Shown here one piece after another: positions 9,042 through 48,401 of a stretch of DNA of 64,000 nt. A program made the position numbers and the translations under genes. The stretch is from Bacteroidota bacterium (lineage in GTDB: Bacteria; Bacteroidota; Bacteroidia; Bacteroidales; JACABE01): contig JAPLDQ010000037.1 in assembly GCA_026391675.1 (NCBI GenBank), forward strand, positions 1-64,000, given 5' to 3'. The notes beneath the pieces were generated by a model that saw only the letters and a list, made by a program, of their open reading frames with translations, had not been told where the DNA came from and ran no database searches. The stretch's first letter is position 1; every line of letters begins with the position of its first letter.

Positions 9042-9054
9042 AAATTAATTTTTT

Positions 9055-9144
9055 GTCCACTGAATACCACTGATGTTCCACTGATTTTCTCTGATAAAAA
9101 TATTTGTGATTATCAGTGAATTTTAACTGTGTGCTTCGGTGGAT
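9055..9144. repeat. 90-bp imperfect palindrome (copy A3)
   Basis: GTCCACTGAATACCACTGAT opens and TTCGGTGGAT closes the copy, with the same CCACTGATTTTCTCTGATAA core and TTATCAGTGAATTTTAACTG return arm as the other copies. It separates the GxxExxY gene from the mutarotase gene. Confidence 0.85.
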
Positions 9145-9171
9145 AAGTTCTTATAATATTATTCTTTTAAT

Positions 9172-9531: not shown

Positions 9532-9546
9532 TATTTTTTATATTTA

Positions 9547-9636
9547 TCCACAGATTACCACTGATATACCACTGATTTTCTCTGATAAAAAATATCTGTG
9601 TCAATCAGTGAATTTTATCTGTGTTCATCAGTGGAC
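9547..9636. repeat. 90-bp imperfect palindrome (copy A4)
   Basis: It begins TCCACAGATTACCACTGAT and ends GTGTTCATCAGTGGAC, with the shared CCACTGATTTTCTCTGATAA core. It lies between the nucleotidyltransferase-kinase fusion and the GxxExxY gene. Confidence 0.85.
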
Positions 9637-9643
9637 AATTAAA

Positions 9644-35982: not shown

Positions 35983-36533
35983 ATATGCGTTAGTATATTT
36001 TAATAATTCAAAATTCAAAATTCAAAAATTCAATTGCACCTACGCTAAGTTCGCCTTATCGCTAAGTTCGCTTCTTCTCGCCCTCGCCCTCTTCGCTACT
36101 TTCACCGTTATCACCCCATCAAAGATTCAATTCGCGTAATTTGTGGATGACTTTTTTTTGCCGCTAATATTGCGAATTTTTGAGATTTTATATTGATAAC
36201 AGTTTTTTTGGCAGAGATGAAAACATATTTGATTATTAGTGAGTTATATGCAAATTTGTTGTGGACTATATACAGCTTCGCCTTGTCAGTTACATTTTTT
36301 ATATGCAATTAACAAGGCATTTTGAGATTACAAAAATAATCAATTCTTTTAACATATAATTTACTAAAATTGTTTAAAGTTTTTGTGAATAGAAGGAAAA
36401 TACTTATTGTATTGATAATTAAAGATAATCAACACAGTCTTTAATTAATGATGGATAATATTTAATGTTTTCTTAACCGCAAGTTTCTAATTGAAATGGT
36501 GTCAAAGATGAAAACACATTAAATTTTTAGATT
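35983..36533. other. intergenic region between the polysaccharide locus and the Cys-rich gene
   Basis: This divergent region should hold the promoter of the whole minus-strand locus. Bases 36000-36115 are repetitive: an ATTCAAAATTC run, two CGCTAAGTTCGC units and a CTCGCCCTCGCCC run, similar to 11993-12092. A CAAAAATA at 36331 would be a minus-strand TAnnTTTG box, but no TTG at the right distance is seen. A 65-codon minus frame at 36111-36308 has no recognisable features. No RNA leader or UpxY/NusG-like antiterminator gene, common ahead of Bacteroides capsule loci, is present. Confidence 0.5.
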
Positions 36534-36967: not shown

Positions 36968-37537
36968 ATGTCAGAAAACGAGCTCGTAGAAGGAATTTTA
37001 AACAATCAGGAAACTGCATTTAAAGAATTGGTCCATTTGTACCAAAAGCAGGTTATTTCGTGCTGTTATGGTTTTACAGGAAATTATCCTGATGCCCAGG
37101 ATGTTGCCCAGGATGTTTTTATTGAAGTATATGAGTCCATCGGAAGTTTCAGGAGAGAAGCAAAACTATCAACATGGATTTACCGCATTGCTGTTAATAA
37201 ATCGATTAACTACAAAAAACAAATGAGCAGAAGACAGTGGGTGAAAAGCATAGAATCTTTTTTTGGAAAAGAAAATAATGAATCCCTAACGGTGAAGGCA
37301 CATAAAAGTGATGAAGCAAATTGCAATATTGAAGGAGAAGAAAGGAAAACGATATTACATATTGCTATTGATAAACTACCCGAAAATCAGCGGATTGCAT
37401 TTACATTAAGTAAATTTGATGAATTATCCTACCAGCAAATTGCTGAAGTTATGAAAACATCCCTGCCATCGGTCGAATCACTGTTACACAGGGCTAAAAT
37501 GAATTTACAGAAAAATTTGGTTCATTATTATAAGTAA
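36968..37537 (+). CDS. ECF RNA polymerase sigma factor (RpoE/CnrH-like)
   Basis: A 189-residue sigma-70 factor with only regions 2 and 4. Region 2: DAQDVAQDVFIEVYESIGSF followed by AKLSTWIYRIAVNKSIN (about 40-80). Region 4: QRIAFTLSKFDELSYQQIAE followed by TSLPSVESLLHRAKMNLQK (about 140-185), the helix-turn-helix for the -35 element. The linker is longer than usual and acidic (about 95-130). The anti-sigma factor gene comes 611 bases later, after an inserted four-helix-bundle gene; originally they were probably adjacent. Targets unknown; the Cys-rich gene upstream is one candidate. Confidence 0.93.
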   Translation: MSENELVEGILNNQETAFKELVHLYQKQVISCCYGFTGNYPDAQDVAQDVFIEVYESIGSFRREAKLSTWIYRIAVNKSINYKKQMSRRQWVKSIESFFGKENNESLTVKAHKSDEANCNIEGEERKTILHIAIDKLPENQRIAFTLSKFDELSYQQIAEVMKTSLPSVESLLHRAKMNLQKNLVHYYK

Positions 37538-37540
37538 AAG

Positions 37541-37570
37541 AGGCAATAGGCATTAGGCAATAGGCACTAG
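37541..37570. repeat. left inverted repeat of the four-helix-bundle cassette
   Basis: AGGCAATAGGCATTAGGCA followed by ATAGGCACTAG consists of three to four tandem AGGCA(A/T)T units. It is complementary to the TGCCTATTGCC-type tandem units at 38011-38062 on the other side of the gene, so the two can pair over about 30 bases. It begins 4 bases after the sigma factor stop codon. Confidence 0.8.
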
Positions 37571-37640
37571 TTAGTAGACAGCAGAAGATGAGTAATGGAA
37601 AAAAATAAAAATAAAAATCTAAATATTCAGTATATAGAAA

Positions 37641-38012
37641 ATGCAAAAAGACAGTACAACAATAAAAAGTTTTAAAGACTTGCTAGTATGGAAGCGAAGT
37701 ATGTCTCTGGTTGAAATAATTTATCGTATCACTGAAAATTTCCCTATTAAAGAAAATTATGGAATAACAAATCAAATGCGCAGATCGGCAGTTTCTATAC
37801 CATCTAATATCGCCGAAGGCTATGGAAGAAAATCAAGTGGAAGTTATTCTCATTTTTTATCCATTGCAAGGGCATCATTATTTGAGTTGGAAACACAAAT
37901 CGAAATATGTATTCGTTTAAAATATATTAAGGATACTGAATCTGAAAAATTGCTTACTGAAATTGAAGAAATCAGCAAAATGATTACTTCACTAATCTCA
38001 AAAATTCACTAA
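37641..38012 (+). CDS. four helix bundle protein (23S rRNA IVS / S23 family)
   Basis: A 123-residue protein of the family first described from intervening sequences of 23S rRNA. Hallmarks: SFKDLLVWKRSMSLVEIIY at the start, NQMRRSAVSIPSNIAEGYGR in the middle (about 54-73) and a helix with ELETQIEI. Bundles of this fold bind nucleic acid; related Avd proteins serve diversity-generating retroelements. Here it interrupts a sigma/anti-sigma operon and has inverted repeats on both sides; the right repeat begins at the stop codon. No rRNA or reverse transcriptase is nearby. Its role is unknown. Confidence 0.93.
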   Translation: MQKDSTTIKSFKDLLVWKRSMSLVEIIYRITENFPIKENYGITNQMRRSAVSIPSNIAEGYGRKSSGSYSHFLSIARASLFELETQIEICIRLKYIKDTESEKLLTEIEEISKMITSLISKIH

Positions 38013-38062
38013 TACCTAATACCTATTGCCTATTGCCTATTGCCTAATGCCTAATGCCTATT
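38011..38062. repeat. right inverted repeat of the four-helix-bundle cassette
   Basis: Seven or so tandem 7-base units (CCTATTG, CCTAATG and variants) run from the stop codon of the four-helix-bundle gene to base 38062. They are the reverse complement of the left repeat at 37541-37570. In RNA the two blocks could fold back and enclose the whole gene in a stem-loop. Confidence 0.82.
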
Positions 38063-38148
38063 ATTAGTATAAATATAGAAAGATTGTATTAATTAAATAA
38101 AAATAAGTCGCAAGAAATTGAATTATAAATTGTCATAACATTATTAAA

Positions 38149-38619
38149 ATGGAAAAAATGAACTGCAGGGATATAGAAAATAATGTATTGTTTTATGCTG
38201 AAAATGAATTATCAGCAGAAACTAAGGCTTTATTTGAATTGCATATAGCAGGCTGTAAACATTGTGCCTTACTTTGTGAGAATATAAAAGCTACTGTATT
38301 CTCAGTTGAAACAGTGCAACATACTGAGGAAGATTTTTATTTTTATACCCGTTTAAAACAACGGATGGAAAATGAAAAATTAAAACAAGCCAACATTAAA
38401 TTTATTCCGAAAAGAATACTGCAACCTATTGCAATTACAGTCCTGATTGGGATTGGTATTTTTACCGGAATTAAAATCGGCAGCCAGTTTAATGCAACTA
38501 AACTTACCCAAACTACCGAAGAAACACGTACATCTCAGCTTGATACCTATTCTGAAGAAACGTATATTGCTGATATTAACAATAAACAATTAGAAACATT
38601 ATATACTTCAAATCAATAA
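38149..38619 (+). CDS. zinc-finger anti-sigma factor (membrane-anchored)
   Basis: A 156-residue protein with the ZAS motif H32-x3-C36-x2-C39 plus Cys6, which binds zinc and holds the sigma factor; a hydrophobic segment at about 91-110 (PIAITVLIGIGIFTGIKIG) anchors it in the inner membrane with a short periplasmic C-terminus. It would sequester the ECF sigma factor encoded upstream and release it on an envelope signal. The Spy/CnrX-like periplasmic protein gene follows 3 bases later, and may be the sensor for it. Confidence 0.87.
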   Translation: MEKMNCRDIENNVLFYAENELSAETKALFELHIAGCKHCALLCENIKATVFSVETVQHTEEDFYFYTRLKQRMENEKLKQANIKFIPKRILQPIAITVLIGIGIFTGIKIGSQFNATKLTQTTEETRTSQLDTYSEETYIADINNKQLETLYTSNQ

Positions 38620-38622
38620 AAA

Positions 38623-39261
38623 ATGAACTACTTTACTAAAAACAGGATATTAATCTGGATTGTTATTGCAGTATTTGCAATTAATATTTCAGCCATAGTG
38701 ACTATTCTATATCATGCAAACAGGGGAAAGTGCAAAATGGAAAGGGAGGGATTCCATCAAAGATCGCATGAGTTTTTTAAAAATGAATTAAATCTTAGTC
38801 CGGAACAGGATAAGCAATTTAAGGATTTATTTGCTGCATCACGCGAAGAGGCAAAACCTATTGTAATAAAAATGCGTGAGCAACGTCAGTCGTTGATGAA
38901 AGTTCTGTTTGAAAAATCAATAGATACCGTAAAACTTAATTTAATTTCAGATTCAATTTTGCAGTCGCAATCTTTATTGCTGCAACATACCATAAAACAT
39001 TATTTATCGTTGAAAAAAATATTAAAAGAAGACCAACAGGATAAATTAAATTTGTTATATCAGGATTTATTTGGCTGCGAAAGGATGCAAATGGGTAAAA
39101 AATGCGGACGTGAATGTGAAAATGAAGCTGGTGATAAAAAAGGCAGAGGTGAAGGCGGTGGTAAAGGTGATGGCGGTGGTAAAGGTGATGGCAGCGGTGG
39201 AGGAAAAAGACATCATGGCGGAACAAGTTGTGAAACCAATGAAGGCTTTATGCTTTTTTAA
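38623..39261 (+). CDS. periplasmic Spy/CnrX-like metal or stress sensor, membrane-anchored
   Basis: A 212-residue protein with one N-terminal membrane segment (about 8-28) and a helical periplasmic domain: SHEFFKNELNLSPEQDKQFKDL, then FAASREEAKPIVIKMREQRQ and LKKILKEDQQDKLNLLYQDL, the pattern of the heavy-metal-resistance/Spy family (CnrX, CpxP, ZraP). In CnrYXH the X protein senses metal and triggers release of the sigma factor. The C-terminal tail (about 150-212) is Gly/Lys/Asp-rich with CER, CGREC and KRHHGGTSC, possibly metal-binding. It completes the sigma, anti-sigma, sensor set. Confidence 0.8.
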   Translation: MNYFTKNRILIWIVIAVFAINISAIVTILYHANRGKCKMEREGFHQRSHEFFKNELNLSPEQDKQFKDLFAASREEAKPIVIKMREQRQSLMKVLFEKSIDTVKLNLISDSILQSQSLLLQHTIKHYLSLKKILKEDQQDKLNLLYQDLFGCERMQMGKKCGRECENEAGDKKGRGEGGGKGDGGGKGDGSGGGKRHHGGTSCETNEGFMLF

Positions 39262-48342: not shown

Positions 48343-48401
48343 GTCTTTTAGTTATAAGTTATGAATTATGAATTATAAGTTGGTTCTTTCACTACTTCTG
48401 C

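Follow-up and report, generated by a model that had tools for sequence, protein, structure and literature searches.

A four-helix-bundle gene between inverted heptamer arrays in a sigma factor operon of a Bacteroidota bacterium: one copy of a widespread and probably mobile cassette class

Why should a small four-helix-bundle (FHB) gene, enclosed by inverted repeats, lie between the sigma factor and the anti-sigma factor genes of a single operon? This question is raised by positions 37541-38062 of a 64,000-nucleotide stretch of DNA (the window), which lies on contig C22 of a Bacteroidota genome of 4.04 Mb in 48 contigs (the home genome). An ECF-type sigma factor gene (36968-37537, forward strand; Sigma70_r2 and Sigma70_r4_2, both E=3e-16) is followed, 4 nt past its stop codon, by a left arm of tandem AGGCA(A/T)T units (37541-37571, forward strand), which runs AGGCAAT, AGGCATT, AGGCAAT, AGGCACT and a final AG, with its G-rich strand facing inward. 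The FHB gene (37641-38012, forward strand, 123 aa) is the sole substantial ORF between the arms, and its stop codon is overlapped by a right arm of ATTGCCT/ATTACCT units (38009-38062, reverse strand), the reverse complement of the left arm. The two arms are 80-86% complementary across 37-50 nt. By-eye comparison with two congeners (L042 and L044) showed that the CGCAAG anchor common to congeners resumes at 38109, and the insert probably extends about 46 nt past 38062, to about 38108, taking in an AT-rich stretch (38063-38108) whose boundary is inferred and inexact. The operon then continues on the forward strand with an anti-sigma factor gene (zf-HC2, PF13490, E=3.5e-8; 38149-38619) and a gene for a membrane-anchored Metal_resist/LTXXQ protein (PF13801, E=4e-9; 38623-39261).

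A preliminary description of this DNA, made from its letters, had placed an FHB gene between inverted AGGCAAT-type arrays and held that the surrounding genes are normally adjacent. The arrangement was confirmed by the sequence, by the inverted pairs and by the profile matches given below, and the sigma, anti-sigma and Metal_resist genes were found contiguous in three genomes of the same genus (L042, L043 and L044), in which the anti-sigma gene directly adjoins the sigma gene. The window unit is therefore an insertion in an otherwise contiguous operon, since the three congeners hold the same operon without the FHB gene, and conservation of an order with the bundle gene in the middle was not seen. 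Nor are the arms a product of chance, because the 18-mer WGGCAWTWGGCAWTWGGC occurs 27 times in the home genome and 0 times when read backwards, and because 49 period-7 arrays, most of them away from FHB genes, were counted against 0 in shuffled sequence, in a 460-kb home-genome sample whose regions were partly picked around arrays and FHB genes, so that array density is biased.

The supposed kinship of the encoded protein to the family known from rRNA intervening sequences (IVS) was upheld. The protein matched PF05635 (23S_rRNA_IVP; E=2.6e-41, 140.6 bits against a cut-off of 33.8, profile positions 1-105 of 106) and TIGR02436 (E=3.4e-40, 136.6 bits against 24), in both cases above the curated cut-off and over the full profile, and its nearest solved structure was PDB 2gsc, that of XCC0516 (E=1.5e-30). 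A homopentamer ring has been stated for this family (PMC4990558), and no catalytic family was matched in the profile search. The home genome contains 13 FHB matches, several of them with internal stops.

The 23S rRNA IVS that carry an S23p ORF in Coxiella and Leptospira share with the window unit the protein family, complementary ends, a sporadic distribution and residence in a transcribed unit; the window ends are likewise stem-capable, as judged from the repeat listing and the predicted fold. However, an IVS occupies an rRNA helix and is defined by excision through RNase III without ligation, whereas the FHB cassette occupies a protein-operon spacer, and its arms are built from tandem words of 7 nt that differ from one protein to another. 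No Rfam match was obtained in the window, and the unit, lying between protein genes and thus outside rRNA, is not classed as an rRNA intervening sequence. Avd, the accessory protein of diversity-generating retroelements (DGRs), is also a four-helix-bundle relative from a ring-forming family, and the scores of the window protein below the Avd cut-offs (30.2 bits against 80 for NF033474, 34 against 40 for bAvd, PF22296) suggest a distant relationship; neither a DGR template/variable repeat nor an adjacent reverse transcriptase was found at the window gene, and the sole reverse transcriptase match of the home genome is on contig C4. The terminal inverted repeats are also reminiscent of DNA transposons, although the window unit contains no transposase or recombinase, its only substantial ORF lacking a catalytic match.

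The organization seen in the window recurs at many FHB genes. Among 152 FHB loci of the phylum Bacteroidota, matching inverted arms, called at a left/right flank alignment score of at least 16, were present at 72 of the 148 that were testable, about half scoring under this threshold. Mismatched pairs of left and right flanks from different loci reached the threshold in 6 of 736 cases, and other genes sampled in the home genome in 10 of 272, some of these controls being themselves repeat-flanked genes (GxxExxY, Y1-like transposase). The FHB flanks displayed a 7-nt period, with autocorrelations of 0.39 and 0.37 versus 0.25-0.27 farther off. Most of the 13 home-genome matches lay between inverted short-unit arrays in varied words (GCTGTTG-, AGTTATTA-, TTATGAA-, AATTAGG-, AGTACTTGG-, AGTAAAC- and GGTAGAA-types, among others), and thus the expectation of repeats at further FHB copies held for the presence of comparable arms but not for the AGGCAAT word, which was mostly replaced by another. 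An FHB orthologue of ~146 aa, found at conserved positions (L011, L062, L066, L079 and probably L064), bore no arms and served as an internal control.

Although the words differ, they follow a common grammar. Expectation-maximisation over 167 arms placed a G at one position in 88% of the units, with A or G before it, mostly T, A or C after it, and variation at the remaining positions; in brief, there is one RG dinucleotide per 7 nt. The likelihood of this grammar was 278 versus 227-235 for permuted columns, and the G-rich strand faces inward in both arms. Moreover, the two arms of a cassette are in register, with an identity of 0.87 versus 0.60 at the best whole-unit shift, and shuffling the order of the units lowered the arm score in 45 of 50 loci. 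Outside the Bacteroidota, arms were observed at 32 of 50 FHB loci, from records titled Cyanobacteria, Acidobacteria, Chloroflexi, Verrucomicrobia and others, with a lag-7 autocorrelation of 0.416 over the first 30 loci; these genomes were reached through TAACTGA matches and the sample is not random. The window locus is one copy of a widespread class of cassettes of about 0.45-0.6 kb that spans phyla, in agreement with the earlier suggestion of a shared class of small insertion units.

The choice of word follows the protein. Among pairs of cassettes at unrelated positions, the fraction sharing a word rose with protein identity: it was 0.02 below 30%, 0.37 at 60-65% and 0.53 at 65-70%, and all seven pairs above 75% shared one. 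When a single locus was kept per site, 48 of 123 pairs with at least 55% protein identity shared the word, against a mean of 3.5 and a maximum of 13 in 2000 permutations. Between phyla the same fraction was about 0.02 below 45% identity and 0.42 at 55-60%. The window cassette itself shares AGGCATT with L106, a locus from another class of the same phylum whose protein is 62% identical. Part of this link is due to protein and arms being inherited together. In 14 pairs examined, however, the arms were 0.75-0.98 identical (best-of-four alignments, hence upper estimates) and the third codon positions 0.37-0.74, or 0.37-0.59 once the closest pair was excluded; since arm identity exceeds that of third codon positions, this comparison suggests a constraint on the arms beyond shared descent.

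The placement of the cassettes is also far from uniform. Between co-directional neighbours (taken as the longest ORFs), FHB genes of the Bacteroidota were in sense orientation in 112 cases and antisense in 11, the corresponding counts in other phyla being 26 and 7, and the median distance from the upstream stop codon to the start of the left arm was 2 nt (interquartile range -4 to 15.5, n=95). Gain and loss were apparent at individual sites. At one site between two operon genes in a single genus, the cassette was present in four genomes; the site was empty in two relatives, one of them from another genus, in which the stop and start codons overlap, and a further genome held a decayed remnant that keeps the FHB N-terminus. 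At a second site, four genomes had the FHB gene, and two lacked it but retained a small array built from another word. Some insertions were kept vertically between species and genera. No recent, near-identical cassette duplicates were seen within one genome, so transposition was not caught in action, and no target-site duplication was resolved, the relatives being too divergent or the sites altered. As a separate observation, at L361 (G139:C3:64100-68150) about 3.6 kb lie between flanks where relatives hold an FHB cassette.

The reading that best accommodates these observations, to which we assign a probability of roughly 0.6, is that the unit is an IVS-like mobile cassette and that its FHB protein reads the word found in its own arms. 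The cassette would consist of an array of a 7-nt word, the FHB gene and the same word inverted, and the protein would most likely read this word in DNA or in transcribed RNA, perhaps with one unit per subunit of its ring. The arms would then act as an identity tag of the cassette, in the manner of terminal repeats for a transposase, and the FHB protein would recruit machinery acting in trans. Cassettes may have been retained preferentially when they landed right behind a stop codon, within an operon and in sense orientation, where they would be transcribed without breaking a gene, and many of the gene-free heptamer arrays would represent relics or derivatives that have no gene. Among the candidates checked (reverse transcriptase, RAYT/Y1), none was identified as the mobiliser.

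Placement right behind stop codons and the 112:11 sense bias would also be in line with an intervening sequence that acts at the RNA level, in which the arms pair in the transcript, RNase III removes the cassette and so makes the insertion tolerable, as happens in 23S rRNA, the FHB protein being a passenger or a binder of the excised RNA. The cassette RNA is indeed predicted to fold with paired arms (z=-5.2), and FHB-family genes sit in rRNA IVS, which in Coxiella are cut out by RNase III (PMC4990558). Nevertheless, inverted arms fold in RNA regardless of their role, and pairing needs no tandem 7-nt units, no common grammar and no word tied to the protein. The solo arrays of the home genome, moreover, have no clear strand polarity (20:14), and such polarity was rejected as a sign of an RNA function. 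We consider this explanation unlikely. RNA-level tolerance or RNase III cutting of the cassette is in itself possible, because the arms can pair in RNA and the sense orientation is strong, while splicing, which the preliminary description had also entertained, is unsupported.

A somewhat less probable alternative shares with the mobile-cassette reading the binding of the arms by the FHB protein and differs in role alone. Here, FHB would be an autoregulated operon gene whose product binds the arms flanking that gene, whether in mRNA or in DNA, and sets its own expression or that of the operon, moving only by homologous recombination and horizontal transfer. An AG-containing unit at a fixed 7-nt spacing, a word tied to the protein and the sense placement behind a stop codon would suit such a regulator, as would the ring-forming family (2gsc; pentamer according to PMC4990558). 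Its presence, absence and decay among close relatives and its very diverse host operons are nonetheless unlike a stable regulator, and many arrays lack a neighbouring FHB gene. The trp RNA-binding attenuation protein (TRAP) is a ring protein that binds AG triplets spaced along RNA. By analogy, FHB would be a second ring protein with evenly spaced AG-containing units, but the fold and the spacing of TRAP are unrelated to those of FHB, whose binding is hypothetical.

The abundance of heptamer arrays without an FHB gene, together with the lack of a detected FHB gene in the DNA fetched for 109 of 110 TAACTGA loci, might instead point to neutral repeats, made by slippage in spacers in which FHB genes lie by chance. 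This is highly improbable, given that the arms match their own partner and not those of other cassettes, are in register and follow the protein lineage, and that control genes of the home genome rarely bear them. Within the window, solo period-7 arrays occur at 48346-48381 (TTATGAA-type) and 35998-36034 (AATTCAA-type), with no FHB gene nearby. Elsewhere, two inverted AGGCATT arrays that lie about 190 bp from each other and include no gene (L301:18457-18650; G000:C39) resemble a MITE-like derivative of the window cassette, and at L302:1514-2504 (G000:C15) a gene other than FHB, pirin-like by eye, lies between inverted AGGCAAT/AATTAGG arrays, which is perhaps a captured gene or perhaps two independent solo arrays.

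Least probable of all is that another enzyme mobilises the cassettes in trans, whether a reverse transcriptase (the arrangement of Avd in DGRs) or a RAYT/Y1 transposase. Although FHB is distantly related to Avd and FHB and Y1 counts are correlated (Spearman 0.54 over 148 genomes, uncorrected for phylogeny), 31 genomes with at least five FHB genes had no reverse transcriptase match, RAYT genes have their own palindromes with no 7-nt period, and Y1 was absent in five FHB-rich genomes. A reverse transcriptase was thus rejected as a required partner, the number of FHB genes being unrelated to its presence, and RAYT/Y1 is an unlikely mobiliser; old cassette copies may conceivably have had a mobiliser that was since lost.

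The preliminary description had also drawn a parallel with a GxxExxY gene elsewhere in the window. That gene (TIGR04256, E=9.5e-43) is indeed flanked by repeats, but it lies between two direct, ~97-nt palindromic copies of the CCACTGAT type (9052-9146 and 9543-9638) and not between inverted heptamer arrays, and its assignment to the same class was discarded in favour of an at most analogous one. A second GxxExxY-like gene, with inverted arms of the ACACAGAG type, was observed at L307:3500-3871 (G000:C40). The repeats at this second gene suggest a parallel class of cassettes with repeat words of its own.

Heptameric repeats have been described before in other contexts. TAACTGA arrays of Beggiatoaceae, Cyanobacteria and Bacteroidetes (PMC4679880) are intergenic tandem heptamers, as the cassette arms are, but were reported to be directly repeated and to lie mostly upstream of genes, with no link to FHB, whereas the window class is inverted; that study saw no evident transfer mechanism. 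A first scan did not reveal TAACTGA arrays as direct neighbours of FHB genes, which were detected at only 1 of 110 loci (fetched DNA of up to 8 kb, Bacteroidota-trained profile), and the link emerged on searching from FHB genes outward. In this way, one FHB subfamily proved to have TAACTGA as its arm word; its members come from Microcystis, a Nostocales genome, Anabaena azotica and Calothrix parasitica (arms at L409, L430, L433 and L435; proteins 70-86% identical). A Bacteroidota relative with 58-64% identity to this subfamily (L054) carries CAGTTAC/CAGTTAT arms and is counted among the carriers of the TAACTGA word. The window word, AGGCA(A/T)T, differs from TAACTGA, and the window unit is not a member of the TAACTGA class. 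The GGGAATC and GGGGA(C/T)T heptamers of Xanthomonas and Nostoc (PMC4692102) and the cyanobacterial STRR lie, like the cassettes, near stop codons between aligned ORFs, and many of the Xanthomonas heptamers form inverted pairs like the FHB arms; unlike the reading proposed here, they were explained by G-quadruplexes in that study, which noted that detailed literature on heptameric repeats was unavailable (PMC4692102). We found no earlier description of heptamer arms at FHB genes in the literature covered, in which subscription journals are thinly represented. A CRISPR-mining study (PMC10910872) places a 23S rRNA IVP domain among CRISPR-linked proteins, a signal to which heptamer arrays by FHB genes might contribute.

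A broader proposal can be put forward only tentatively. FHB proteins would read heptamers sequence-specifically, one word per subfamily, and would themselves propagate the cassettes that encode them; a large part of bacterial heptameric repeat DNA (TAACTGA, STRR, GGGAATC) would be made up of cassette arms and relics, and the rRNA IVS would be copies that landed in rRNA genes. If so, a family to which no function has been assigned outside rRNA introns would acquire a concrete and testable role, and the large natural collection of protein-word pairs would make a recognition code readable. The cassettes would also account for where heptameric repeats come from and how they travel, and FHB cassettes may be the origin of many of the puzzling 7-base repeats of bacteria.
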